Positions 17,172 to 21,768 of a DNA stretch of 64,000 nt are shown here, one piece after another. How positions within the stretch are numbered: position 1 is the first letter of the stretch; every line of letters begins with the position of its first letter. This stretch comes from an uncultured Pseudokineococcus sp. (GTDB lineage Bacteria > Actinomycetota > Actinomycetes > Actinomycetales > Quadrisphaeraceae). Both the position numbers and the translations under genes were made by a program. The stretch is taken from NCBI RefSeq assembly GCF_947495735.1, contig NZ_CANMAA010000003.1, forward strand, positions 186,001 to 250,000. The letters are read 5' to 3'. The notes beneath the pieces were generated by a model, which saw nothing but the letters and a program-made list of their open reading frames with translations, did not search any database and was not told the DNA's origin.

Positions 17172-18805
17172 GGCTCACCACGACCGCCGACGAGTGGTGG
17201 ACGACGAGCGTCGGGTACTGCCTCGACGTCGAGCGCTTCGCCGACTCCAGCGGGGACGGGCACGGGGACCTCGTCGGCCTCGGCCAGCACCTGGACCACC
17301 TCAGCCGCCTCGGCGTGGGGTTCGTCTGGCTGCAGCCCTTCTACCCCTCGCCCGAGGGCGACGACGGCTACGACATCACCGACTACTACGCCGTCGACCC
17401 CGAGACCGGCAGCCTCGGGGACTTCGTCGAGGTCGTGCGCGCCTGCCGCGAGCGCGGGATGCGCGTGCTCGTCGACCTCGTCGTCAACCACACGTCCGCC
17501 GAGCACCCGTGGTTCCAGGACGCGCGGTCCAGCCGCTCCTCGCGCTACCGGGACTGGTACGTGTGGCGCGACGAGCCGGACCCCGCGGACGAGGGCGCGC
17601 AGAACGTCTTCCCCGACGCCGAGGACTCCATCTGGTCCTACGACGAGACGGCCGGCCAGCACTACCGGCACCGCTTCTACAGCTCCCAGCCCGACCTGAA
17701 CACCTCGAACGAGGAGGTCCGCGACGAGATCCTGCGGATCATGGGGTTCTGGCTCCAGCTCGGCGTGGCGGGCTTCCGCGTCGACGCCGTGCCGTTCTTC
17801 GTGGAGACGGCCAGCCGCACCGGTGACGCCGACGACGCCGGCGACCCGGACGGCACGGGGCCCGAGGACGCCGGCCAGGGCGGCGAGCACTCCGAGCACC
17901 TCGACGAGTCGATGCGGATGCTCGACGTCATGCGGACCTTCCTCGCCCGCCGCAGCAGCGAGGCCCTCATGCTCGGCGAGGTCAACCTGCCCTACGAGCA
18001 GCAGGCGGACTTCTTCGGCGGCATCGGCGACCGCATGACGATCAACTTCGACTTCACGCTCAACCAGTCGATGTACCTGGCGCTCGCGCGCGGGACCTCC
18101 GAGCCGCTGCGGCGCACGCTCGCCTCGCGCCCGGTGCTCCCCGACGGCAAGTCCTTCGGGGTCTTCGCGCGCAACCACGACGAGCTCACCCTCGACCAGC
18201 TCTCCGAGGACGAGCGGGCCGAGGTCCTCGCCGCCTTCGGCCCCCGGGAGGACCAGCAGCTGTTCGGGCGGGGGCTGCGCCTGCGCCTGCCCACCATCCT
18301 CGACGGCGACCGGGCGCGGATGGAGATGGTCTACGCGCTGGTCTTCTCGGTCCCCGGCGTCCCCGTCCTCTACTACGGCGAGGAGGTCGGCCAGGGCGAG
18401 GACCTCTCGGTGCCCGGCCGCGTCGCCGTCCGGACGCCGCTGCGCTGGGACCGCGACGCCCCCACCGGCGTCGCCGCGCAGGAGGCCGACCCCGGCTCGC
18501 TCCTGCACGCGATGCGCCGCCTCGTGGCCTGCTACCGCTCCCGCCCCGAGCTCGGCCCGGGCGTGCTGCAGCTGCTCGACGTCGGCGACGAGCGGGTGCT
18601 CGCCTCGGCGAGCACGTGGCGGGGGCGCACCACCGCGGCGCTGCACAACCTCGCCGACGCGGAGGTGGAGGTCCGCCTGCCCGGCGACGTCCTCGACGGC
18701 GACGTCGTCGACCTCTTCTCCGGCGAGCCCGTCGAGGTGCCCGCCGACGGGCTCGCGCTGACGCTCCCCCGCTACGGCTACCGCTGGCTCGGCGACGGGG
18801 CCTGA
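17168..18805 (+). CDS. GH13 alpha-amylase family enzyme, trehalose-synthase-like
   Basis: 545 residues. GH13 barrel with VDLVVNHTS, GFRVDAVPFF (nucleophile Asp), LMLGEVNL (acid Glu) and FARNHDELTLD (third Asp). The order and the phrase RNHDELTLD resemble trehalose synthase (maltose-trehalose interconverting) rather than amylase. It is translationally coupled to an LLM oxidoreductase, so both proteins likely act together, but no maltokinase or GlgE is present. A short acidic insertion after the nucleophile (about residues 220-245) is rich in Asp/Gly. C-terminal beta domain ends in YRWLGDGA. Confidence 0.88.
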   Translation: MRLTTTADEWWTTSVGYCLDVERFADSSGDGHGDLVGLGQHLDHLSRLGVGFVWLQPFYPSPEGDDGYDITDYYAVDPETGSLGDFVEVVRACRERGMRVLVDLVVNHTSAEHPWFQDARSSRSSRYRDWYVWRDEPDPADEGAQNVFPDAEDSIWSYDETAGQHYRHRFYSSQPDLNTSNEEVRDEILRIMGFWLQLGVAGFRVDAVPFFVETASRTGDADDAGDPDGTGPEDAGQGGEHSEHLDESMRMLDVMRTFLARRSSEALMLGEVNLPYEQQADFFGGIGDRMTINFDFTLNQSMYLALARGTSEPLRRTLASRPVLPDGKSFGVFARNHDELTLDQLSEDERAEVLAAFGPREDQQLFGRGLRLRLPTILDGDRARMEMVYALVFSVPGVPVLYYGEEVGQGEDLSVPGRVAVRTPLRWDRDAPTGVAAQEADPGSLLHAMRRLVACYRSRPELGPGVLQLLDVGDERVLASASTWRGRTTAALHNLADAEVEVRLPGDVLDGDVVDLFSGEPVEVPADGLALTLPRYGYRWLGDGA

Positions 18806-18841
18806 GCGCACCGGGAGGACCGGCGCGGGGATGATGCGCGC

Positions 18842-19384
18842 GTGGACGCCTCCGCCGCCCCGGCCGCCCGCCTCGGCCACGACCTCGCGACGGCCGCGCT
18901 GGTGCTCGCCGTGGCCGTCGACCCGTTCACCGGGCTCCGCCGGCGCGCGGGCTTCGCCGAGCTCGTGGTCCACCAGCAGCGCGCCGACGCGGTGATGCGC
19001 CGGGCGGGGCCGGTCCCGTCCGTGGCCTCGGCGGTCGCCGGGCTCGGGGCCTCGGCGGTCGTGGTGCGCCGGGAGCCCGCGGAGGCGGCGCTGCGGTCGG
19101 CGTCGGTGCTGGCCGTCGCCGCCGCGGTGGTGCTCACCGTCCGGGTCCACGTCCCGATCAACGAGCAGCTGCGCACCTGGAGCCCCGAGGTCGAGGTGCC
19201 CGGCTGGCGCGAGACGTGGGGCGCCTGGGAGCGCGCGCACGTCGCGCGCCGGGCCCTCACGGCCCTGGCGGGCACCCTGGTCGTCGCGGCGGCCGCCGTG
19301 CCGACCGGCGGCGGTCGTCGTGGGTCGCCCTGGGCGGCGCGGCAGCAGCAGCCCCGGAGGACCGCGTCGACGGCGTCCGCGTGA
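18842..19384 (+). CDS. DUF1772 (anthrone-oxygenase-like) membrane protein
   Basis: 180 residues, about four hydrophobic helices. The segment VHVPINEQLRTW followed by WERAHVARRALTALAGTLVV is the pattern of the DUF1772 family (fungal anthrone oxygenase-like), in which the N-Asn-x-x and W-x-x-x-H/R residues are conserved. The C-terminus is short, basic and Gln-rich. The gene is 63 bp upstream of the rhodopsin gene on the same strand, so the two may be co-transcribed. Function unknown. Confidence 0.7.
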   Translation: MDASAAPAARLGHDLATAALVLAVAVDPFTGLRRRAGFAELVVHQQRADAVMRRAGPVPSVASAVAGLGASAVVVRREPAEAALRSASVLAVAAAVVLTVRVHVPINEQLRTWSPEVEVPGWRETWGAWERAHVARRALTALAGTLVVAAAAVPTGGGRRGSPWAARQQQPRRTASTASA

Positions 19385-19447
19385 CCGGCTCGCTGCCGCG
19401 AGCGGTGCTCCGCCCCGCGCACGCGGTTGCCGCCCCTCGAGGACTCC

Positions 19448-20179
19448 GTGAGGGTGGGCGGCTCGAGGGGGTGGTCACGTGGTGACGAGGTGTGGCTGTG
19501 GTCGTACGTGGGCGTCATGGCGCTGGGCGCCGTGGTGTTCGGGGTGTGGGCGCGGAACCCGCTCGGCGTCCCCCGCGTCGAGTACGTCGTCGCGGCCGCG
19601 ATCCCCGTCTGGTCCGGCACCTGGTACGCCGTGATGGCGCTCGGCGGCGGGCAGACCGAGGTCGCGGGCCAGACGACGTACTGGGCCCGCTACGTCGACT
19701 GGGTCGTCACCACGCCGCTCCTGCTGGTGGCCCTCGCGCTGACCGCGACCCACGCGCTGCCGCGGTTCCCGCGGCGCCTGGTCGCCGCCCTCGTCGCCGC
19801 CGACGTGGTCATGATCACGGCGGGGGCGCTGGCGGACCTCGCCGAGGCCGCCGCGTGGCGCTACGCGCTGCACGGCCTCGGCTGGCTGGGTCTGGTGGCG
19901 GTGCTGGCGCTCGTCTGGGGACCGCTGCGGCGCCTCGCCGAGCAGCAGCCCCCCGCCATGGCGGCGGCCTTCCGCCGGGTGGCGCTGCTGCTCAGCCTGC
20001 TGTGGCTGGGGTACCCGCTGGTCTGGCTCCTCGGCCCGTCCGGCCTCGGCCTGGTCGGCCAGACCACCGACACCGCGCTGTTCGTCCTGCTCCCCGCGGT
20101 GTCCAAGGTCGTGTGGAGCGTCGTCGACCTGACGGAGCTGCGGACCCTCTCCCGCCGCGGCGAGCTCCGCGTCGCCTGA
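19448..20179 (+). CDS. Xenorhodopsin-type microbial rhodopsin
   Basis: Seven-helix retinal protein of about 243 residues. Helix C reads ARYVDWVVTTPLLLVALALT: Asp84 and Thr88 align with bacteriorhodopsin D85 and T89, while Ala95 replaces the proton donor D96. Helix D has Asp119. Helix F keeps WLGYPLVWL (Trp186, Tyr189, Pro190). Helix G reads LPAVSKVVWSVVD: Lys220 binds retinal, Pro216 replaces D212, and Asp227 lies seven residues after Lys. Pro at the D212 site plus Asp at Lys+7 match Anabaena sensory rhodopsin and the inward proton-pumping xenorhodopsins, whose proton acceptor is that Asp. I infer an inward pump or sensor. No retinal-forming Blh gene is nearby. GTG 19448 is chosen for its GAGG site; TTG 19427 is possible. 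Confidence 0.92.
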   Translation: MRVGGSRGWSRGDEVWLWSYVGVMALGAVVFGVWARNPLGVPRVEYVVAAAIPVWSGTWYAVMALGGGQTEVAGQTTYWARYVDWVVTTPLLLVALALTATHALPRFPRRLVAALVAADVVMITAGALADLAEAAAWRYALHGLGWLGLVAVLALVWGPLRRLAEQQPPAMAAAFRRVALLLSLLWLGYPLVWLLGPSGLGLVGQTTDTALFVLLPAVSKVVWSVVDLTELRTLSRRGELRVA

Positions 20180-20190
20180 GCTGCCCCCGA

Positions 20191-20230
20191 TCCCGCCCCG
20201 TCGCCGCCCGCGGGGGCGGCGACGGGCGGG
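20191..20230. terminator. Bidirectional terminator between rhodopsin and photolyase
   Basis: A 12-bp perfect stem (CCGTCGCCGCCC with its complement, loop GCGG), extended by further C/G pairs with one bulge, in the 53-bp gap between convergent genes. Confidence 0.7.
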
Positions 20231-20232
20231 GG

Positions 20233-21768
20233 TCACGGCGCGTCGCTGCCGCGCTGGCGCTCCTGCTCGACGAGCGCCTCGAGGTCCTTGAGGCGGTGCC
20301 GGCCCTGCAGCGCGCGCCCCATCCGGAAGTTGCCCTCGAGCCGCTCGGCGTTGCGGTCGAGGAACCACCAGTAGCCGGCCGTGAAGGGGCACGCGTCCTC
20401 CCCGACCCGGACGGTGGGCTTGTAGCGGCAGGGCTTGCAGTGGTCGCTCATCCGGTTGATGTACGCCCCGCCCGAGGCGTAGGGCTTGGTGGCCATGAGG
20501 CCGCCGTCGGCGTGCTGGCTCATGCCGATGACGTTGGCCGCCATCACCCAGTCGTAGCCGTCGACGAAGCTGCGCTGGAACCACGCCATCAGCTCCGCCG
20601 GGTCCCAGCCGCGCTGGAGGGCGTAGTTGCCCAGCACCATCAGGCGCGGGATGTGGTGGACCCACCCGCGGTCGCGGACCCCGCGCAGGGCGGAGGAGAG
20701 GCAGCGCGCCTCGACGGCGTCGGCGTCCAGTTCCCAGAACCACTGCGGGATCGGCTCGTGCGCGGCGAGCGCGTTGCGCTGCGTGTAGTCCGCCCCGGCG
20801 TACCAGTAGACGTGCCAGATGTAGTCGCGCCAGCCGATGATCTGGCGCACGTAGCCCTCCACCGACGCCAGCGGCGCGTCGCCGGCGCGGTGGGCGTCCT
20901 CGGCCCGCTCGACGCACTCCAGCGGGTCGAGCAGCCCGAGGTTCATGGGCGCGGACAGCATCGAGTGCGCCATCCACTCGTCGCGCTCGAGGATCGCGTC
21001 CTCGTGCGGGCCGAAGGCCGGCAGGCGGTGGTCGACGAAGTCGTCGAGCGCCGCGAGCGCCTCGGCCCGCGAGGCCGCGAAGGTGCGGGGGCCGTCGCGG
21101 CCGACGAAGGAGACGTCGCCGTCGGCCTCCCAGCGGTCGAGGTCGGCGCGCACCTCCTCGTCGATCTCGTCCTCGACGGGCAGCCAGACGCCCGGCAGCC
21201 CGAGCGTCTCGGCGCCCTTCGGCGGGGGCTCGCGGTTCTCGTGGTCGAGGTTCCACGTGCCGCCGACGGGCTCGGCGCCGTCCATGAGGACGCCGTGCGC
21301 GCGGCGGGCGCGGCGGTAGAAGTCCTCCATGAGCAGCTGCTTGGTGCCGTCGGCCCAGCGGCGGAAGTCCTGCCGGCTCGTCGCGTAGCCCCGGTCGGGC
21401 AGCACCTCGACGGCGGGCAGGTCGCCCGAGCCGTCGAGGGAGCGCACGAGGTCCTCGGCCTGGCGCGACGTGGGCGAGCAGACGCTGAGCGGCAGCGCCG
21501 TCCGCGGCAGCCTCGCCAGGCCCTCGGCGTAGGTGTCGGTGCGGTAGTAGGTGCAGCGGTCCCCCAGCTCCGCGGCGCGGTGGCGCATCGCCGACAGGAT
21601 CAGGTGGGCCTTCTGCCGGTGGAAGCGGCGGCGGGTGAACACCTTCCGCGACTCGATGAGGAGGACCGGCTGCTCGCCGTCGTCGCCCGGGTTCTCGACG
21701 TCGCCCAGGAAGTGCGGGCCGAGCTGGTCGCCGAAGAGCCAGCGGGTCGGCCCGGGTGCTGTCGCCAT
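20233..21768 (-). CDS. FeS-type bacterial (6-4) photolyase/cryptochrome (FeS-BCP, DPRP family)
   Basis: 511 residues from ATG 21768. N-terminal Rossmann-like domain starts RWLFGDQLGPHFL, the DPRP opening, with the antenna-binding region; the helical FAD domain includes GRDDIWH-like GWRDYIWHVYWY. Four cysteines for a [4Fe-4S] cluster are visible: one in ARCLSSALRG and three in HCKPCRYKPT and EDACPF. The segment MGMSQHADGG-like GMSQHADGGLMATKPYASGG is typical of the family. These enzymes repair (6-4) photoproducts or act as blue-light receptors. Convergent to the rhodopsin gene; upstream region holds a 41-bp repeat array. Confidence 0.93.
   Translation of the reverse strand: MATAPGPTRWLFGDQLGPHFLGDVENPGDDGEQPVLLIESRKVFTRRRFHRQKAHLILSAMRHRAAELGDRCTYYRTDTYAEGLARLPRTALPLSVCSPTSRQAEDLVRSLDGSGDLPAVEVLPDRGYATSRQDFRRWADGTKQLLMEDFYRRARRAHGVLMDGAEPVGGTWNLDHENREPPPKGAETLGLPGVWLPVEDEIDEEVRADLDRWEADGDVSFVGRDGPRTFAASRAEALAALDDFVDHRLPAFGPHEDAILERDEWMAHSMLSAPMNLGLLDPLECVERAEDAHRAGDAPLASVEGYVRQIIGWRDYIWHVYWYAGADYTQRNALAAHEPIPQWFWELDADAVEARCLSSALRGVRDRGWVHHIPRLMVLGNYALQRGWDPAELMAWFQRSFVDGYDWVMAANVIGMSQHADGGLMATKPYASGGAYINRMSDHCKPCRYKPTVRVGEDACPFTAGYWWFLDRNAERLEGNFRMGRALQGRHRLKDLEALVEQERQRGSDAP

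Follow-up and report, generated by a model that had tools for sequence, protein, structure and literature searches.

Anabaena sensory rhodopsin (ASR) works with a partner, ASRT. The described xenorhodopsins include BcXeR of Bacillus coahuilensis, PoXeR of Parvularcula oceani and NsXeR. In PoXeR an Asp located seven residues after the retinal lysine (Lys+7) is the proton acceptor, assisted by a Glu partner and by an Asp in helix D; the substitutions E35D/Q, D108E/N and D216N are reported to reduce pumping markedly, and D216E to increase it about threefold (PMC5118547). The same paper reports NDQ, NTQ and xenorhodopsin genes together in P. oceani, and poses the question why cells keep an inward H+ pump, which is costly in proton-motive force. 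On the residue of NsXeR that matches the Lys+7 Asp, D220, the literature disagrees: it was described as the acceptor in 2021 (PMC8518763), and as not being the initial acceptor in 2026 (PMC13093656). For the L state of BcXeR, a three-water chain leading from the Schiff base toward Ser211 has been described (PMC13093656). We report on a gene of this family found in the window, the whole 64,000-nucleotide stretch of Pseudokineococcus DNA.

A xenorhodopsin gene in Pseudokineococcus and its phylogenetic placement

The gene and the signal preceding it are:

19439-19443, plus strand: GAGGA, putative ribosome-binding site read from the sequence, 4 bases 5' of the GTG at 19448
19448-20179, plus strand: xenorhodopsin gene, 243 aa, GTG start, TGA stop

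The GTG at 19448 is a plausible start codon, although the gene may begin instead at GTG 19454 or GTG 19490. Translation gives 243 residues and a stop in an intact frame, whose G+C content at the three codon positions (0.76/0.53/0.98) is as expected in a G+C-rich genome, and which is thus coding-like. A scan for sigma-70-type promoters and terminators, which says little at such high G+C, found none. The protein has a single Pfam match, Bac_rhodopsin (PF01036; E 4.6e-49, 167 bits, residues 13-229), a profile without matches in any of 14 control genomes. Among sequences of known structure ASR matched best (2m3g, E 1.7e-53), and the xenorhodopsin 7zng came third (E 3.8e-53). The AlphaFold2 model, built with 21 sequences, displays seven helices with a mean pLDDT of 93.9; in a Foldseek search the ten top entries of the 50 listed all belong to BcXeR (TM normalised by query length 0.87-0.89, rmsd between 1.0 and 1.2), and ASR comes next among those 50, one of its entries being the mutant 4tl3, which transports inward. 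The residues singled out by an earlier, sequence-only reading of this DNA (D84, T88, A95, P216, K220 and D227) all occur in the translation under these numbers.

Relatives were sought in genome_contigs with two peptide patterns, one of which contains the Arg of helix C and misses xenorhodopsins having Trp or Phe there. The main maximum likelihood tree comprised 82 rows, the PoXeR and NsXeR sequences not being among them. Short or broken frames (L035, L063, L065, L061, L071, L064, L072, L020, L091 and L092) were left out, as were L087, having no retinal lysine in the alignment, the duplicates L066, L067, L070 and L078, and L001/L003, which represent the window itself. In this tree the window protein belongs to a clade of 43 rows that also includes ASR and BcXeR (support 100/100) and, beyond the actinobacterial trio described below, members from cyanobacteria, Hymenobacter and Bacillaceae. 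Rows that have Asp at the position of bacteriorhodopsin (BR) D212 (Rubrobacter/Thermoleophilia-type) fall outside it, as do those of NDQ and DTE type. The window protein is therefore a member of the xenorhodopsin/ASR clade, a further representative of a known family that is rare. A placement among outward-pump or NDQ rows, against which the sequence-only reading was to be checked, was not obtained.

Within the clade the window protein forms a trio with those of Micromonospora phaseoli and M. halophytica (support 100/99), and a separate tree of actinobacterial xenorhodopsins did not split it from Micromonospora rows that carry Pro at the D212 position (Pro type). The M. phaseoli protein (L021) is the nearest relative found, with 67% identity and the same DTA motif in helix C, Pro216, Asp119 and Trp223; it differs in having Arg38 and Gln40 for Pro and Gly and a Gly at position 222, and its gene lies, as read from the open reading frames, between guaA and a GMC-type oxidoreductase gene. 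BcXeR (PDB 7zmy/7zng) shares 46% identity with the window protein over the aligned part and superposes on it with a TM of 0.89 by query length and an rmsd of 1.0. Both have Ala at the D96 position, Asp at position 119, Pro at the D212 position, Ser at Lys+4 and Asp at Lys+7, whereas BcXeR has Ser where the window protein has Thr88, and Gly-Phe where it has Val222-Trp223. ASR (PDB 1xio) is 44% identical over its aligned part and likewise has the Pro, the Lys+7 Asp and a Glu at its position 36; it differs by Gln in place of Asp119 and Ser in place of Ala95. PoXeR was compared by its published description rather than by alignment: its acceptor Asp, Glu partner and helix D Asp all have counterparts here, and its helix C motif is DTL, as opposed to DTA in the window protein (PMC5118547).

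Two rhodopsins from contigs labelled as Bifidobacterium breve MAGs (L077 and L081) grouped with those of Thermoleophilia, and the labels look doubtful. A partial match from another family of the phylum (L020, G613:C50) carries Pro-x-x-Ser-Lys in helix G and Val at Lys+7; its N-terminal half is not clear in frame, and it is possibly a broken or diverged xenorhodopsin. In viral_contigs, 18 stretches matched a pattern and none was confirmed as a relative, so that viral carriage was rejected; no relatives were found in plasmids.

Locus, neighbours and origin

The surroundings of the gene were compared with those in the three other genomes of the genus:

18778-20218, no strand: 1,441-base segment that the congener G001 lacks at this place (blastn)
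18842-19384, plus strand: membrane-protein-like gene, 180 aa, with a weak Anthrone_oxy match (PF08592; 28.6 bits, cut-off 27.3)
20233-21738, minus strand: photolyase-related gene (DPRP, PF04244), convergent neighbour, in 4/4 genus genomes compared

In G001 the sequences flanking the segment (up to 18777 and from 20219) align by blastn only 77 bases apart. The segment corresponds to the rhodopsin gene plus the 180-aa gene upstream, and since both are missing from G001 they were gained or lost together. Matches to PF01036 occur in one of the four genus genomes, that of the window, and a 394-genome sample of the class yielded a single genome with a match at E 1e-30, that of the window. This patchy spread favours gain of the segment rather than loss. 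In the two other congeners the available sequence beyond the photolyase gene (4.2 kb in G003; 0.6 kb, to the contig end, in G002) had no match to window positions 10-30 kb, so that neither congener shows the rhodopsin or the flank of the window there. The restricted distribution within the genus and the empty syntenic site in G001 would also fit a recently gained gene that is unused or decaying, but with an intact, coding-like frame in which the functional residues conserved in the clade have been kept, we regard this as quite improbable.

The photolyase-related gene, whose counterparts in the three congeners share 88-91% identity with it, ends 53 bases from the end of the rhodopsin gene. A heliorhodopsin of Trichococcus has been reported to work with a photolyase (PMC9769723), and the proximity of the two gene ends would agree with a similar partnership here. 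We consider this very unlikely: the two genes are encoded on different strands, three congeners that gave no PF01036 match have the photolyase all the same, and the other rhodopsin loci (L021-L065 and L116-L139, with flanks of at most roughly 1.5 to 6 kb) gave no photolyase match.

Functional residues and the direction of transport

Residues were counted over 49 aligned clade rows besides the window protein, setting aside rows broken at the position in question. The codons concerned are:

19580-19582, plus strand: Glu45, at the position of PoXeR E35 and ASR E36; Glu in 47/47 rows with a readable helix B
19697-19699, plus strand: Asp84, Schiff-base counterion, BR D85 position; Asp in 48/48 rows with a letter there
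19802-19804, plus strand: Asp119, ASR Q109 position, Asp in BcXeR; Asp in 10/49 rows, Gln in 38/49, Asn in 1/49
20093-20095, plus strand: Pro216, BR D212 position; Pro in 43 of the 44 rows that have the lysine of helix G, the exception being a Ser (M. halophytica)
20105-20107, plus strand: Lys220, retinal Schiff-base lysine, from the alignment
20111-20116, plus strand: Val222-Trp223 (Lys+2/Lys+3), from the clade alignment
20126-20128, plus strand: Asp227, ASR D217 and PoXeR D216 position, Lys+7; Asp in 42/44 rows, Glu in 2/44

The window protein possesses both the retinal lysine in helix G and the counterion in helix C, together with the residues of an inward pump, namely an acidic residue at Lys+7 (Asp227), a Glu in helix B (Glu45) and an Asp in helix D (Asp119); E45, D84, D119, D130, P216, S224 and D227 are all present. 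Asp119 is assigned to the place of PoXeR D108 because it aligns with ASR Gln109 and PoXeR numbering runs one below that of ASR (D216/D217, E35/E36). Ser224 is Ser in 44/44 clade rows and matches Ser211 of BcXeR, and the position of NsXeR His48 is occupied by Ala (Ala49), as it is in BcXeR. Trp or Phe at the BR R82 position has been reported as a xenorhodopsin trait (PMC9601134). The window protein, ASR, BcXeR and 48/48 clade rows with a letter there have Arg (Arg81), a count biased by the search pattern that contained this residue; since ASR and BcXeR also lack the aromatic residue, it does not define the clade.

The unusual residues of the window protein, as judged from the alignment, are Val222 and Trp223 beside the retinal lysine. 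Position 222 is Gly in 44/44 other clade rows, and position 223 is Phe in 42/44, Trp being found in the remaining two, both from Micromonospora; Trp223 is common to all xenorhodopsin rows of a wider Micromonospora alignment. Both residues are unlike those of ASR and BcXeR, the two characterised members aligned, and might interfere with the passage of protons on the inner side. Ala95, at the BR D96 position, had been thought noteworthy by the sequence-only reading, with possible effects on kinetics. It is in fact ordinary, with Ala in 31/48 clade rows with a readable helix C (Ser in 14, Thr in 3) and in NsXeR, where it is Ala87 (PMC13093656); special kinetics need therefore not follow, and Ala95 was rejected as a special feature.

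We consider a light-driven inward H+ pump to be the best explanation for the window protein, with a probability of roughly two in three (0.66), judging from its residues and by analogy with characterised relatives. As in PoXeR and BcXeR, the retinal on Lys220 would isomerise in light. Because BR Asp212 is replaced by Pro, Asp84 would be the sole residue holding the Schiff-base proton at the outer side. That proton would move to the cytoplasm by way of water and Ser224 toward the Glu45/Asp227 pair, after which the Schiff base would be reprotonated from outside. This path and its direction are what we infer from the relatives. That the Lys+7 Asp could serve as acceptor, as the sequence-only reading had it, agrees with what is reported for PoXeR, but stands less firmly in view of the disagreement over NsXeR D220.

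An outward proton pump like actinorhodopsin would not be foreign to the family, as two other genera of it have DTE-pattern rhodopsins with Asp at the D212 position (L099-L102). In the window protein, however, Pro216 replaces Asp212 and Ala95 the proton donor of such pumps, and the grouping with ASR and BcXeR at full support sets it apart from the DTE rows, making outward transport very improbable. It is this placement, apart from rows with Asp at D212 and from NDQ and DTE rows alike, that upholds the earlier expectation of an inward pump or a photosensor as opposed to an outward pump.

The choice between the two is less sharp. ASR, a photochromic sensor of the same clade, has most of the same residues, so that residues by themselves are no proof of pumping, and the window protein might be an ASR-like photosensor without net transport, whose partner would be either soluble or the membrane protein encoded upstream. 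The 180-aa gene lies on the same strand at a distance of 63 bases and is absent from G001 together with the rhodopsin gene, as a partner might be; it has, on the other hand, no relative in the other rhodopsin loci compared. We lean to a pump because of the Asp at the PoXeR D108 position, which is Gln in ASR, and because of the short C-terminal tail, both being pump features rather than features of ASR. After D227 the window protein continues for 16 residues, compared with 44-48 in four of the five cyanobacterial rows inspected; the fifth, from Oculatella (L025), has 22 residues and also an Asp at position 119. PoXeR is likewise described as being without a long Arg-rich tail, such as ASR has (PMC5118547).

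The distribution of ASRT genes (PF07100) was examined for its bearing on a sensory role. In the window's genome (G000, 96.7% complete) no ASRT match was found at E 0.001, a weak test that counts only slightly against a sensor. Among 47 xenorhodopsin-clade loci, five have an ASRT gene (PF07100; 2ii7-like), all of them cyanobacterial, with the gene just 3' of the rhodopsin. A query with one such protein matched in 6 of 11 genomes: its source genome, four Micromonospora with Pro-type xenorhodopsins, and the Metabacillus genome of the BcXeR relative L030. No match was obtained in M. halophytica, Hymenobacter arizonensis or the genomes of the close ASR relatives L044 and L058. The homologues in all four Pro-type Micromonospora tested would favour a sensor, except that they lie 29-47 kb from the rhodopsin gene in the three genomes having both on one contig. 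As ASRT is absent alongside the ASR relatives L044 and L058 and present alongside a relative of BcXeR, it does not separate sensors from pumps, and its absence was rejected as strong evidence for pumping. Taken together, a photosensor appears unlikely, though by no means negligible, and an inward pump remains our preferred reading.

A second rhodopsin, retinal supply and the Micromonospora gene pairs

The genome of the window encodes a second rhodopsin on another contig (G000:C10; L002:1450-2286), with Asn97, Asp101 and Gln108 forming the NDQ pattern of sodium pumps. It is 63-69% identical to Micromonospora copies, and its gene has a G+C content of 0.68, versus 0.77 for the window. Its matches in the PDB include sodium pumping rhodopsin chains (4xtl and others), with better E-values for chains including those of a chloride pumping rhodopsin; the best match, 8qle, is labelled only as bacteriorhodopsin-like. 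Because sodium and chloride pump labels are mixed among these matches, Na+ as its ion is deduced from the motif. To judge by their motifs, the host is thus likely to possess two light-driven cation pumps that work in opposite directions, and in this it differs from B. coahuilensis, in whose genome (G725) the NDQ protein had no match. PoXeR, too, comes from a genome with an NDQ rhodopsin (PMC5118547).

Retinal is probably made by the host, since a gene for beta-carotene 15,15'-dioxygenase (BCD) is present (G000:C4); the two rhodopsin genes and the BCD gene are located on three different contigs. Among 13 genomes of the family that were searched, five have a rhodopsin and all five of these a BCD gene, and one further family genome, that of the congener G003 (G003:C4, L098), has BCD without a PF01036 rhodopsin.

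A search of 160 Micromonospora genomes gave PF01036 matches in 27, of which 24 were above the cut-off; the loci of the three below it showed no xenorhodopsin, NDQ or BCD match and were left out of the counts. By similarity, 23 of the 24 have a xenorhodopsin-clade protein and one (G860) an NDQ rhodopsin only. In 14 of the 23 the NDQ gene adjoins the xenorhodopsin gene in divergent orientation, with 104-217 bases from start to start (measured between matched ends); in each of these 14 the NDQ motif could be read and a BCD gene follows 3' of the xenorhodopsin gene on the same strand. Two further genomes (G682, of M. phaseoli, and G790) have both genes apart, in G790 by about 1.2 Mb, each with the NDQ motif, and the other seven have no second PF01036 match.

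These 23 xenorhodopsins, all of which keep Asp84, Glu45 and Asp227, fall into three types. Four genomes have the Pro type, as in the window. Sixteen have a Ser type (L120-L135, L022:6004-6684), in which Pro216 is replaced by Ser and Asp119 by Asn, with Asp84 and the Lys+7 Asp retained. Three have a fast-evolving His type (L137, L138 and L139) with His for Arg81 and for Tyr60, followed by the BCD gene. The paired xenorhodopsins are mostly of the Ser type (11/14), versus the Pro type of the window. As the D212 position is said to set the direction of pumping, such natural Pro to Ser and Asp119 to Asn variants bear on that question. A 2018 paper on Micromonospora genomes lists genes for proteorhodopsin and, in M. 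halophytica along with three other species, for sensory rhodopsin II (PMC5765111). Photocurrents reported for one Micromonospora NDQ rhodopsin were 1-2 pA, KR2 giving equally small ones in that assay (PMC5531490). In the mostly open-access literature covered by our search, we came across neither a description of an actinobacterial xenorhodopsin nor one of a divergent xenorhodopsin/NDQ pair.

The repeated occurrence of actinobacterial xenorhodopsins beside a sodium-pump-type gene offers a concrete and testable setting, in a clade with named species (M. phaseoli, M. halophytica), for the question of what an inward pump is for. It is conceivable, though doubtful, that the NDQ rhodopsin (Na+ out) and the xenorhodopsin (H+ in) of actinobacteria form a two-pump module, which at matched rates would amount to a light-driven Na+/H+ exchange with little net charge, as their gene arrangement and motifs might suggest. 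Such a module would serve to regulate pH and salt, and not to supply energy. Against it speak the scattering of the three genes in the window's host, the 7/23 Micromonospora that have a xenorhodopsin and no NDQ gene, the predominance of the Ser type over the window's Pro type among the paired xenorhodopsins, and the scarcity of NDQ rhodopsins in the clade outside the actinobacteria, where 3/43 genomes searched have one.

In total the NDQ protein was searched against 45 other genomes that contain loci of the xenorhodopsin clade, the genome of L061 not being among them, and matched in 11, five of which have the NDQ motif: M. phaseoli, M. halophytica, Hymenobacter arizonensis, Oculatella and Gloeocapsopsis. 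With the motif in 5/45, a general link between the two kinds of rhodopsin across the clade was rejected. In the three non-actinobacterial cases (L105-L107) the roughly 1.5 kb around the NDQ gene contain no xenorhodopsin gene. The NDQ tree did not split the copy of the window's genome from those of Micromonospora, Hymenobacter and cyanobacteria, and since it leaves this copy unplaced, joint transfer of the pair finds no support in it. A further Gloeocapsopsis copy (L114) contains an internal TAA, and two xenorhodopsin-bearing Hymenobacter genomes have second rhodopsins with a DTK pattern in helix C (L111 and L112).
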